In this document: one piece after another, positions 4,016-59,341 of the stretch
How the letters are laid out: every line of letters begins with the position of its first letter
Position numbering within the stretch: the stretch's first letter is position 1
DNA from: Arthrobacter sp. FW306-07-I
GTDB taxonomy: Bacteria > Actinomycetota > Actinomycetes > Actinomycetales > Micrococcaceae
NCBI RefSeq assembly: GCF_021800405.1
Contig: NZ_CP084551.1
Span: 37,758 to 101,757, forward strand
DNA: 64,000 nt
Direction of reading: 5' to 3'
The notes under the pieces: generated by a model
What the model was told of the DNA's origin: nothing
Databases searched by the model: none
Seen by the model: the letters and a program-made list of their open reading frames with translations, nothing else
Translations under genes and position numbers: made by a program

Positions 4016-4191
4016 GTCCTTCTTGTCCGAGAAGTTGGGTGGGTGGGGCGGTTCGTGGTGACCGGCCAGCTCCCCTTCTCCCCGGCGTTGTTTTGGCTGC
4101 TGGCGGAGCTTGCGGAGCTGTGCCCGACGGAGCGCCTGTCCACCCGTAAGGGCAAGGGGCGGAAATCTTCGTAAGGAAATCAGCGACGCAG
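4016..4191 (-). repeat. Leader repeat copy 1, gene-proximal part
   Basis: This is the first 176 bases of a ~370 bp repeat also found at 7873-8243 and 9316-9688. Each copy ends next to the start codon of a minus-strand gene and supplies its ribosome site. Here the repeat breaks off at 4191 and resumes at 6083 because an IS110-family element has inserted. The three downstream genes use different frames relative to the repeat, so it is an untranslated leader or promoter module and not a conserved N-terminus. Confidence 0.9.
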
Positions 4192-4212
4192 ACATCTCAC
4201 GTGTTTAGGAAG

Positions 4213-5442
4213 TCAAGCAGCGAGCTCTGCGGGTGGGGTGAAGGCTGTGGTTTCGTCGAATTGGGTGTTGGTGGTGAGGCAGTGGTGGAGTTGGCCGAGG
4301 AGGCGGTTGAAGAGGTTGCGTTGGGCTGCTGCGTGCCAGTCCCCGGCTGCGCGGCGGCGTTTGTAGTGGGCTTTGGCGCCTGGGGATCCGGTGAGGGCGG
4401 ACAGTGCCCACATGTAGCCGACGGTGCTGAGGCGGTCGTTCTTGACGAATCTGCGGCCGACGAATTTCTTCTTGCCCGAGGCTCTGGTGATGGGTGCGGA
4501 GCCGGCGTAGGCCTTCAGGGCGCGGGCGTCTGCGAACCGTTGCCTGTCGTCTCCGATTTCGGCCAGGAGCCGGGCTCCGAGCTGGTTTCCGATCCCGGGG
4601 AAGCTGAGCAGGATCTGGGCGTCGGGGTGGGTGAGGAAGGCTTCCTCGACGGCGGCGCCGAGCTGGTCGACGGCCTGGCAGGCGGCGTCGAGGAGAAGCA
4701 GCAGGCCGGCGGCCTGCTGGCCCATGGCGTCTTCGACGGCCTGGGGCTGGCGGGCGTGATCGCCGCGGAAGATGGTTTTGATCCGCTGGGCCTGGGCAGT
4801 GATGCCGCGGGACCGTCCCGCGCGGCGCAGGGCGGTTTCGATCCGGGCGGTGCTGAGCCGTGCGCCCGTGCCCGGGGTGGGGGCGATGCGCAGCAGTTCC
4901 CTGATTTCAGGGCGGGTAAGGCCGTTCTGCCAGACCGCGCCGGCCTGTAGGAGGGCCGGGTAGAACTGGCGCAGCACGGAGCGGAGCTGGTTGGCGGTCT
5001 GCTGGCGTGCCCAGACCGCGTCCTGCTGGGCGCGGGCCAGGACGGTGATCGCCCGCGCCTGCTCGGTGTCGGCCGGCAGGGGGCGGTGCGCATGGGCGTC
5101 GGTGCGCAGGATGTTCGCCAGCACCAGGGCATCGCCCGGGTCGGACTTCTTCTTCGAGACCCCGTGCCGGTCGCGGTAGCGGGCGGCGGAGAGCGGATTG
5201 ACCGCATAGATTTTCCGGGCGCCGGCGCGCAGGGCCGCGACGAGCAGGCCCTGGCTGGTTTCGATCGCCACCGGGACGGGGTCCTGGGGTGTGTCCCCAT
5301 GGTCGGCGAGCAATTCCATCAGGTCCCGGTAGCCGGCGGCGTCGTCGGTGATCCGGCGTTTGGCCAGCAGCTCGCCGGCGCTGTCGATAATAGCGATGTC
5401 ATGGTGGCCTTCGGCCCAGTCGATCCCGCAGTAGAGGTCCAA
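4213..5442 (-). CDS. IS110-family transposase (DEDD recombinase)
   Basis: This is a full-length, 409-residue transposase. The N-terminal RuvC-like DEDD domain shows YCGIDWAEGHHD (Asp8), VAIETSQG (Glu near 61) and KKKSDPGDALVLANIL (two Asp near 103-107). The C-terminal Transposase_20 domain has LLSFPGIGNQLGARLLAEIG and AYAGSAPITRASGKKK, whose Ser is the likely nucleophile. Translation starts at a TTG at 5442 with GAGGAG eight bases upstream; the next residues match the family start. IS110 enzymes are guided by a structured bridge RNA encoded in a non-coding end, here probably the 640 bases upstream. The frame is intact, so the element may be active. Confidence 0.93.
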   Translation of the reverse strand: MDLYCGIDWAEGHHDIAIIDSAGELLAKRRITDDAAGYRDLMELLADHGDTPQDPVPVAIETSQGLLVAALRAGARKIYAVNPLSAARYRDRHGVSKKKSDPGDALVLANILRTDAHAHRPLPADTEQARAITVLARAQQDAVWARQQTANQLRSVLRQFYPALLQAGAVWQNGLTRPEIRELLRIAPTPGTGARLSTARIETALRRAGRSRGITAQAQRIKTIFRGDHARQPQAVEDAMGQQAAGLLLLLDAACQAVDQLGAAVEEAFLTHPDAQILLSFPGIGNQLGARLLAEIGDDRQRFADARALKAYAGSAPITRASGKKKFVGRRFVKNDRLSTVGYMWALSALTGSPGAKAHYKRRRAAGDWHAAAQRNLFNRLLGQLHHCLTTNTQFDETTAFTPPAELAA

Positions 5443-5509
5443 TCTGTGCTCCTCGCAGTCAAGGGTGTGTTCTGTTCTCGGGGTGTGCCAGTTCGGATCA
5501 CGCAGCGCC

Positions 5510-5542
5510 CTAATTCCAAGACTCGAAGGTCTGCCATCTCAC
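5510..5542 (-). ncRNA. Candidate donor-binding loop of an IS110 bridge RNA
   Basis: On the transposase strand this segment reads GTGAGATGGC, then a small hairpin (AGAC-cttcga-GTCT), then GGAATTAG. GTGAGATG is identical to the last bases of the element's right end (CATCTCAC at 4193-4200 on the plus strand). GAATTAG is the complement of the core plus the element's left end (CTAATTC, 6078-6084). The order left-guide, hairpin, right-guide is that of the donor-binding loop in IS621-type bridge RNAs, and it lies about 70-100 bases upstream of the transposase start, as expected. RNA ends and expression are unknown. Confidence 0.6.
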
Positions 5543-5771
5543 CAGCCGTTCGTGAAACGAGTCCACTTCGGGCGCCCCGGTCTAACCAAGAGCTCCACGG
5601 CTCCCGGAGAAGGAAGGGGTCATCCCGCAGCCTGCACGCCACCACGAGAACCAAGTACCACGCCATCAGTCGGGGGTTCCGCCGCCACGCGGGCGGCGGA
5701 ACCTGGCCGGCAACAACACCGAAGCATTGGCCGGCCCGGTCCGGGGGGCCTGCGGCGTGAATCCGCCGTTA

Positions 5772-5820
5772 CGCGCCGCTCTTCGTCGAGGGTTCAAGGA
5801 CCGAAGAGCGCCGGAGGCGT
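5772..5820 (-). ncRNA. Target-binding-loop-like hairpin, copy A
   Basis: This 49-base unit is 42/49 identical to one at 5942-5990. On the transposase strand it reads CGGCGCTCTT, a small hairpin (GGT-ccttga-ACC), then CGACGAAG. The first block pairs with AGGAGCGCCG of the actual target with one G-U wobble. The second matches the other target half (CGACGCAG) at 7 of 8 positions. It may be a second or degenerate target-binding loop. Confidence 0.45.
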
Positions 5821-5833
5821 CGCAGCAGCGCTG

Positions 5834-5928
5834 CCACCGCGGGAACCCCGATAACAGCTTCCGGCGGGGCCAGCTGACCTGGTCCCGCCGGAAGCGATTT
5901 GCGGTCACATCTGGGAGTCCCGCGGTGG
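5834..5928. repeat. Nested inverted repeats in IS110 left end
   Basis: An outer pair, CCACCGCGGGA (5834-5844) and TCCCGCGGTGG (5918-5928), encloses an inner 12-bp perfect stem, GCTTCCGGCGGG (5857-5868) with CCCGCCGGAAGC (5884-5895). The inner loop can extend the stem further. The structure sits exactly between the two 49-base target-loop-like units and is not expected in a minimal IS110 end. Confidence 0.8.
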
Positions 5929-5941
5929 GGCCGCCGGTGAC

Positions 5942-5990
5942 CGCGCCGCTCTGCGTCGAGGATTCCAAGATCCAAGAGCGCCGAAGGCGT
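5942..5990 (-). ncRNA. Target-binding-loop-like hairpin, copy B
   Basis: On the transposase strand CGGCGCTCTT (5983-5974) is followed by a small hairpin (GGAT-cttgga-ATCC) and CGACGCAG (5958-5951). The first block can pair with all ten bases of AGGAGCGCCG on the right of the insertion site (one G-U pair). The second is identical to CGACGCAG at 4184-4191 and so can pair with all eight bases of the other strand. Flanking GGTGAC/GTCACC form a closing stem. This is the arrangement of a bridge-RNA target-binding loop, although it lies about 500 bases upstream of the transposase. Confidence 0.5.
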
Positions 5991-6082
5991 CACCACCGGT
6001 AACTCCCCCACAGAACCCCAACAAGACAGCCCCGGGAAGAGCCCCACCACCTGGTCACCTGGAAGCCGCTTAACTACGAATT

Positions 6083-6282
6083 AGGAGCGCCGTCGAAGAA
6101 TTTCCACACCGCAGGCCCCTGGAGGAACGACAGGGGCTGGACGGGCCGGAGCGGGCACGTACAATCCGTCAGGACAGCAGCCAAAAAGCGTCGCAGACAA
6201 AAACGGGCCAGGGGGTCCGGAGCCCTGCGACGGCACCCCCTGACCCCAACAGCCGGCCGCGGAGCCTGCGGAGCGGACGCCC
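6083..6282 (-). repeat. Leader repeat copy 1, distal part
   Basis: This is the remaining 200 bases of the ~370 bp leader repeat, displaced from its first part by the IS110 element. It keeps the TACAAT box at 6160-6165 and the CAGGGGGT/ACCCCCTG stem (6209-6242) found in the other two copies. Confidence 0.9.
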
Positions 6283-7863: not shown

Positions 7864-7872
7864 GGGTGTTGT

Positions 7873-8243
7873 TCCTTCTTGTCCGAGAAGTGGGGTGGGT
7901 GGGGCGGTTCGTGGTGACCCGGCCAGCTCCCCTTCCCCTCCCCCGCGTTGTTTTGGCTGCTGGCGGAGCTTGCGGAGCTGTGCCCGACGGAGACCCGTCC
8001 ACCCGTAGGGCAAGGGGCGGAAATCTTCGTAAGGAAATCAGCGACGCAGGAGCGCCGTCGAAGCATTTCCACACCGCAGGCCCCTGGAGGAACGACAGGG
8101 GCTGGACGGGCCGGAGCGGGCACGTACAATCCGTCAGGACAGCAGCCAAAAAGTCGCAGACAAGAAGGGCCAGGGGGTCCGGAGCCCTGCGACGGCACCC
8201 CCTGGTCCCCCAGCCGGCCGCGGAGCCTGCGGAGCGGACGCCC
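7873..8243 (-). repeat. Leader repeat copy 2 (intact)
   Basis: This is an intact 371-base copy of the leader. It begins 10 bases upstream of the DUF4192 start codon with the ribosome site and ends at GCGGACGCCC. It preserves the uninterrupted IS110 target CGACGCAGGAGCGCCG near 8042-8057, a TACAAT box on the plus strand at 8125-8130, and the CAGGGGGT/ACCCCCTG stem. Confidence 0.92.
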
Positions 8244-9315: not shown

Positions 9316-9688
9316 TCCTTCTTGTCCGAGAAGTGGGGTGGGTGGGGCGGCCCTGTGGTGACCGGCCAGCTCCCCTTCCCCTCCCCCGCGTTGTTTTGGC
9401 TGCTGGCGGAGCTTGCGGAGCTGTGCCCGACGGAGACCCGTCCACCCGTAGGGCAAGGGGCGGAAATCTTCGTAAGGAAATCAGCGACGCAGGAGCGCCG
9501 TCGAAGATTCCCGCACCGCAGGCCCCGACGAAGGAGGGGCTGGACGGGCCGGAGCGGGCACGTACAATCCGTCAGGACAGCAGCCAAAAAAAGCGTCGCA
9601 GACAAGGACAGGGCCAGGGGGTCCGGAGCCCTGCGACGGCACCCCCAGGCACCAACAGCCGGCCGCGGAGCCTGCGGAGCGGACGCCC
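9316..9688 (-). repeat. Leader repeat copy 3 (intact)
   Basis: This is an intact 373-base leader copy immediately upstream of the gene starting at 9307. It retains the uninterrupted IS110 target near 9486-9501, the plus-strand TACAAT box at 9563-9568, and the G-rich/C-rich stem. Confidence 0.92.
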
Positions 9689-56903: not shown

Positions 56904-57509
56904 GTTCTCACTGACCCTCGCTAATTGGCGTCCTGCCCCAGACTATCCACGGGAAATAGAGAATCCCAGGGATCCTTCCACTATGGCCTTTAAGGTGACG
57001 TCGATTCAGCCCGTTACATGCCCAAGGCTCCGTCAACGTGCTTAGGCTCAGACAAGCTGACCGTGGTGACTCTATTCCGTCCACAGCTGGGGTCAAGTGG
57101 GGTTAGCCACGGCTGGAGGTCGGGAGCCGTTGGGGTAGCTCCCATTGCAGCAGTAGCCCCGGGTGTGGGCGCAGGCGGGACCAAGCCTTTCAGTGGCCCC
57201 GGATCCAAGTTCCTCTTTCTGGACCCAAGTCAAGACGCCCGGTGCCAGGTTTGGGTGTGCCCTATTCGGGCGGTGTGAGCTGTCATCCAGATCTCTACTT
57301 TCAGTAGACCATCTTTTTAAGAGGGCCTGCTGTCCGAGATCTCCACGGCAGCTCAAGAGAGTTGCTGCGGCGATCTCAGACAGCGGAATTAGTGGATTCT
57401 TCTACGCTGCCAAGGCTGGTTGTTGATAACCCAGATGACCAACGCCCCGGAAGCACTGTCAGTGGGGGCCTGTTGCGTCTCGCCGACTGCTCTGTAAGGT
57501 TGGTCACAT
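56904..57509. other. Intergenic, diverged copy of the 39.7 kb repeat
   Basis: A 78-base stretch (57079-57156) is about 80% identical to 39734-39810 and shares GTCCACAG, CCACGGCTGG and GGGAGCC words. No gene or further RNA was recognised before the riboswitch. Confidence 0.55.

Positions 57510-59341
<1,832 letters not shown>

Follow-up and report, generated by a model that had tools for sequence, protein, structure and literature searches.

The window, a 64,000-nt stretch of contig NZ_CP084551.1 of Arthrobacter sp. FW306-07-I, carries an IS110-family element whose left end (LE) holds two predicted target-binding loops upstream of a single predicted donor-binding loop. The following features were assigned:

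4192-6084, minus strand: whole IS110-family element, 1,893 nt with one copy of the CT core counted, LE at the high coordinate
4213-5442, minus strand: IS110-family transposase/recombinase gene, an ORF of 409 aa with a TTG start
5503-5551, minus strand: predicted donor-binding loop, with guides LDG GTGAGATGGC at 5542-5533 and RDG GAATTAG at 5516-5510
about 5555-5631, minus strand: conserved proximal stem-loop domain adjoining the donor loop, with a framework like that of a target-binding loop (weak match, 20.1 bits, E 0.98)
5755-5831, minus strand: predicted target-binding loop A, with LTG CGGCGCTCTT at 5813-5804 and RTG CGACGAAG at 5788-5781 (model R1, 50.4 bits, E 1.7e-06)
5923-6001, minus strand: predicted target-binding loop B, with LTG CGGCGCTCTT at 5983-5974 and RTG CGACGCAG at 5958-5951 (model R1, 45.9 bits, E 1.2e-05)
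6083-6095, minus strand: left target half CGACGGCGCTC (6095-6085) and core CT (6084-6083), read at the junction
4184-4191, minus strand: core CT (4191-4190) and right target half GCGTCG (4189-4184), read at the junction

The encoded protein is an IS110-family recombinase of the IS110 group, combining the DEDD RuvC-like domain with Transposase_20 (PF01548 DEDD_Tnp_IS110, E 1.5e-37; PF02371 Transposase_20, E 2e-16; above cut-off), and it matches IS621 chain 8wt6_A in the PDB (E 6.8e-07). The other contig of the same genome, 4.46 Mb in length, holds a copy, L095, that is identical to the window element over all 1,893 nt. Identity is 100% from the LE core to the right-end (RE) core and the flanks diverge beyond, with 22/30 positions matching on each side. 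Since this identity stops at the cores and the ends fit the donor-loop guides, we placed the element ends at 4192 and 6084. The donor guides match the RE end GTGAGATG-T-CT and the LE end CTAATTC, both of which were found as predicted, and the same guide search locates both ends of L095 at 8/8 left and 7/9 right positions. The dinucleotide core CT is present at both junctions, which together give the window target as ..CGACGGCGCTC-CT-GCGTCGCTG.. The predicted non-coding RNA region, comprising the target loops and the donor loop, sits 5' of the gene, between the LE end at 6084 and the gene start at 5442. Among relatives, each locus's own donor-loop guides give both ends in 44 elements (the window and 43 of the 85 loci with enough upstream sequence), and looser end searches raise this to 66 of 78, so that the predicted donor guides are complementary to the RE and LE ends, as in a bridge RNA. 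At gathering thresholds Rfam returned no family for the loop region, its sole match in the window being a TPP riboswitch elsewhere (57504-57613, plus strand, 63.6 bits).

Each target loop is predicted to consist of an outer stem, a left guide of ~10 nt, a small apical hairpin and a right guide of ~8 nt. Loops A and B have the left guide in common, and their right guides differ by one base. A first-pass annotation, made from the letters alone, had placed two tandem target-guide-like hairpins at 5772-5990: the hairpins are real, and its bounds cut both slightly, the covariance-model matches running over 5755-5831 and 5923-6001. The pairing that it described was reproduced in full. Both blocks of B are present on the minus strand and can pair with 18 of 18 target positions (one G-U), those of A with 17 of 18, and the apical stems differ by the reported change of GGAT/ATCC versus GGT/ACC. 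We rejected chance as the source of the guide-target match on two comparisons: the best stretch of 18 in the window's left end reaches 17 letter identities, against at most 15 in 1,000 two-base-block shuffles, and 71 elements without a loop in common with the window have arrays that average 9.5, with a maximum of 12/17, when scored to the window target.

The two identical copies stand at slightly different targets. Loop B scores 16/17 to the window target and 15/17 to that of L095; loop A scores 16/17 to the L095 target and 15/17 to that of the window. On the right side the match is exact, the window target CT-GCGTCG being the perfect partner of the right guide of B (8/8) and the L095 target CT-TCGTCG that of A (8/8). 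The same element is thus found at targets that fit B and A respectively, and these targets differ where the loops differ. Within the close family of seven members, the better fit is to A in L095, L014 and L015 and to B in the other four, namely the window, L011, L012 and L013. The right side of L013 matches at 7/8, and L011 and L012, whose sites are nearly identical, are perhaps not independent. As the loops differ only by one right-guide base and small changes, the window's family alone is weak evidence, and its two loops would cover two variants of one repeated target. A leader-like repeat holding this target occurs at window positions ~4040-4190, 7866-8060 and 9322-9500 (partly by eye), and the same contig has two perfect, uninterrupted copies of the target pattern at G000:C2:45799 and 47242. 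In the window's genome four loops reach E 0.001, all of them in the two identical copies. A second IS110 recombinase gene of that genome (L096, G000:C1:3919800-3923500), about 72% identical, has its own left end, in which the model calls one loop; the right end assigned to it, 630 nt beyond the gene, is uncertain.

A scan of genome contigs gave 279 stretches encoding relatives of the recombinase, of which the best 80 were taken as loci. The covariance model R1 was built from 36 of 54 loop segments, with near-duplicates removed by hand; loops were chosen by framework, regardless of how well they fitted their own target, the framework pattern having first been seen in target-matching loops. Of 180 model matches 149 were used, some of them weak (E up to 2.4), and 31 dropped: three window rows (L095 was counted instead), 24 in the proximal domain, two on the minus strand and two downstream of the gene. 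In this survey derived from the best 80 loci, R1 finds 149 predicted loops in 77 elements, at one to four per left end: 24 elements have one loop, 36 two, 15 three and two four, so that 53 of 77 carry between two and four. Successive loops are spaced at 86-118 nt in 65 of 72 cases, and the left end, from the LE end to the gene start, measures 341 to 809 nt in 66 elements. These predicted arrays do not have the described form of a bridge RNA, in which one target loop and one donor loop make up a single two-stem unit, a form that is not strictly defining. The duplication of target loops proposed in the first-pass annotation was borne out and exceeded, the arrays usually having different guides.

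The arrays also differ in composition among relatives. Loops are shared among L046, L047, L086, L061 and L025, among L054, L055, L059, L065 and L075, and between L124 and L041, with a common first or last loop and the others different; this sharing in varied combinations looks like modular gain and loss. In L053, L024, L064, L071, L083 and L117-L119 the right end lies 500-800 nt beyond the recombinase gene, and an acetyltransferase gene (L117, L118) or a methyltransferase gene (L119) precedes it; some of these far-right-end elements appear to carry cargo.

Do the loops track the targets? We scored nine left and eight right positions, 17 in all, in 66 of 78 elements (the 77 plus the window), leaving out 12 that lacked an end or contained N. 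The own best loop averages 14.7/17, compared with 9.5 for the arrays of elements sharing no loop, and the own array beats every such foreign array in 55 of the 66 elements. These represent 56 distinct targets, 41 of which score at least 14, a value reached by 0.43% of 4,142 foreign pairings. When the whole left end is searched, the best target match falls in a model-called loop in 62 of 66 elements. Usually a single loop accounts for the fit: with the window's family set aside, the mean over 43 multi-loop elements is 14.8 for the best loop and 8.9, a background value, for the runner-up, and in 40 of the 43 the best reaches at least 13 and the runner-up stays at 11 or below. The position of the best loop varies. 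Among 50 multi-loop elements, near-copies included, the 35 two-loop arrays divide into 18 with the first loop best and 17 with the second; in 13 three-loop arrays the best loop takes first, second and third place in 3, 7 and 3 cases; and of two four-loop arrays one is best at its first loop and the other at its last. Some fits are poor or one-sided: the best loop reaches only 10/17 in L017, L057 and L085, the left guide matches 9/9 and the right only 4/8 in L046 and L086, and the second loop of L041 fits 9/9 on the left and 5/8 on the right.

A held-out plasmid set, not used in the model, was scored as well. Of the 17 loci fetched, 14 with both ends were scored, with a mean of 14.0 against 9.7 for foreign arrays; nine of the 14 reach p below 0.05 and five do not. 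The set includes L117-L122, which are close relatives of L041, an element that was in the model. L129, at 10, and L126 and L131, at 11, show no fit; L123 and L124 just miss p 0.05, L124 being equalled by four arrays that pass as foreign. In L121 and L122 the right end only was available, with right-guide fits of 6/8 and 5/8, and in L132 neither loops nor ends were found. Covariation of the blocks with the target among homologues, the check that the first-pass annotation proposed, is seen across the 66 elements and 56 distinct targets, own loops matching far better than foreign ones: the predicted target guides are complementary to the target and covary with it, as those of a bridge RNA do.

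Folding was assessed at several levels. The inner and apical stems keep their pairing through two-sided changes at four of seven predicted pairs (RNAalifold), and RNAalifold recovered only these seven pairs. Across 87 distinct loops the outer stem arms score 8.9 with their own partner versus 6.7 when partners are swapped (standard deviation of 20 means, 0.13). Folded singly, loops A and B are not clearly stabler than shuffles (z -1.16 and -1.04), and their two guides are able to pair with each other in these folds. Taken as a whole, the window's left end folds more stably than its 20 shuffled versions (z -3.95), a result that is uninformative on the loops as such. Because the single-loop folds are unsupportive and RNAalifold recovers so few pairs, the structural case rests mainly on the partner-swap comparison and on the covariation with targets.

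The clearest separation of loops within one array comes from identical or sister elements at different targets. Streptomyces acidiscabies NRRL B-16521 has three elements, L032, L033 and L034, that show no difference over 1,830 nt and stand at two unrelated targets (L033 and L034 lie in near-identical flanks and were counted as one site type). The L032 target TCAACGTC-CT-CTGGGC is fitted by the loop at -440 (15/17), the L033/L034 target CT(C/T)TCAGC-CT-TGGCGT by the loop at -324 (15 and 16/17), and the remaining loops score 7 to 11 at those targets. Sister elements with an IS117-like loop pair behave alike: the fit is to the first loop in L039, L062, L068, L078, L092 and L117-L120 and to the second in L041, and L124, in which that second loop is the third beside two other loops, fits the shared loop at 15/17. 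The first-pass annotation had regarded the same blocks at unrelated targets as the case that would speak against guides. It does occur, in L032 versus L033/L034, and it supports multiple loops, because each target fits a different loop of the same array.

It could be argued that each element has one active loop and that past retargeting has left the rest behind as duplicates, decayed or silent. One loop usually fits the present site, and some loops score weakly, such as that at -526 in L032-L034 (E 0.71), as this account would predict. We nevertheless consider it unlikely: identical elements within one genome fit two loops, both in S. acidiscabies and in the window/L095 pair (B and A), elements with the same IS117-like pair mostly fit its first loop and, in L041, its second, with L124 fitting the shared loop, and the fitting loop keeps no fixed position.

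That targets are in fact read by the proximal stem-loop (5555-5631), with another function for the upstream hairpins, is very improbable. In favour of this account, the domain stands where a target loop normally would, the window's family conserves it strongly, and its framework is TBL-like, with two segments that vary. It holds the best left-end target match in only 1 of 66 elements, its segments match no targets, and, differing between lineages, it is the same or nearly so in sisters at different targets (L039/L041 and L032/L033, cases found by pattern); on these grounds we rejected it as a target loop. For the weaker candidate loop that the first-pass annotation noted at 5593-5619, this means that the normal TBL position stands and the target role does not, the domain around it failing to track the target. 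Given its near-constancy in sister elements at different targets, we take the domain between array and donor loop as structural. It is scarcely credible that the upstream hairpins arose by capture or duplication of target DNA, or serve as protein-binding sites, and match the target as a by-product, even though the target is an imperfect palindrome and a repeat, from which related sequences can arise by copying: the left half runs in the same sense and the right half is reverse-complemented with an apical hairpin between them, as in guides, and this one design tracks 56 distinct targets, for which reasons captured target DNA was rejected.

We come back to the array. By sequence comparison the loops exist and track their targets, the fitting loop may stand at any array position, and identical elements lie at targets that fit different loops. 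We infer a bridge RNA with interchangeable target modules that share one donor loop: very probably, the left end encodes a tandem array of target loops plus one donor loop, and any of the target modules can direct the recombinase. Each module would direct it to its own target, the shared donor loop would hold the element's own RE-LE junction, and a multi-loop element could therefore insert at several kinds of site. All loops would be transcribed, on one RNA or as pieces, and each target module would act together with the donor loop, whether in trans or over a distance. In the simplest model a transcript would begin at the RE-LE junction, once the element is excised as a circle, and span both the array and the donor loop. 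A promoter across the RE-LE junction is described for IS110 elements (PMC11208160); in the window element a -35/-10 pair across that junction, searched by eye only, was not found. In the IS621 synaptic complex the target loop and the donor loop belong to two RNA molecules and are held by different recombinase dimers, and recombination proceeds in vitro with separate RNA molecules (PMC11208158). By this analogy, a donor loop that serves several target modules asks nothing new of the protein, and the arrangement is mechanically plausible. The interpretation offered in the first-pass annotation, which had seen the duplication in a single left end, is supported and largely holds.

More broadly, we think it likely that this actinobacterial IS110 clade has a natural multi-address array, with which one element can hop between unrelated target families and whose modules are gained, lost and shuffled, and that this would explain the two site classes of IS117. 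Natural arrays of this kind would show that target modules are separable and stackable. This bears on the ways in which the elements change targets (a single element could leave one type of site and enter another), on multiplexing with bridge recombinases, and on the relation proposed between IS110 and arrays of tandem guides such as TIGR. With such arrays, the two classes of IS117 insertion site reported in 2007 would also have an explanation that can be tested. The printed end of IS117 from Streptomyces coelicolor, AGCCCCCTGAGATGT before CTA (PMC2194683), precedes the CT core in L039, L041, L068, L078, L118, L119 and L124 and is one base off in L062, L117 and L120, and the elements with an IS117-like end carry two or three loops. 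The experimental IS117 insertion sites in Actinosynnema and Mycobacterium smegmatis form two consensus groups (PMC2194683). By extrapolation from these relatives, the two loops may correspond to the two site groups.

Compared with known systems, the elements described here resemble the IS621 bridge RNA system (Durrant 2024; Hiraizumi 2024) in the recombinase family, the left-end RNA region 5' of the gene, the CT core, the left and right target guides flanking an apical hairpin, and the donor loop near the gene. Unlike IS621, described with one target loop in a 177-nt RNA (PMC11208160), they have one to four predicted target loops, often with different guides, in a longer left end. The seekRNAs of IS1111 and IS110 elements (Siddiquee 2024) are likewise short RNAs that select the target, the RNA being predicted in our case; that paper speaks of one target per IS or IS group, and the phrases 'two targets' and 'more than one target' are absent from its main text (PMC11187229). 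TIGR-Tas, for which an evolutionary relation to IS110 is proposed (PMC12045711), shares the tandem order of guide units. It differs in its Tas proteins, its processed 36-nt tigRNAs and its lack of transposition, whereas the protein here is an IS110 recombinase and 65 of 72 loop spacings are 86-118 nt, which places our arrays outside TIGR-Tas. In that source the IS110 bridge RNA is presented as one unit of two stems (PMC12045711), a form from which the arrays depart. The first-pass annotation had thought duplicated target loops in a bridge RNA undescribed, and we found no report of them among the open-licence papers listed by our searches. As judged from these sources, several target loops per bridge RNA appear to be new, set within a recombinase family and a guide-loop design that were already known.
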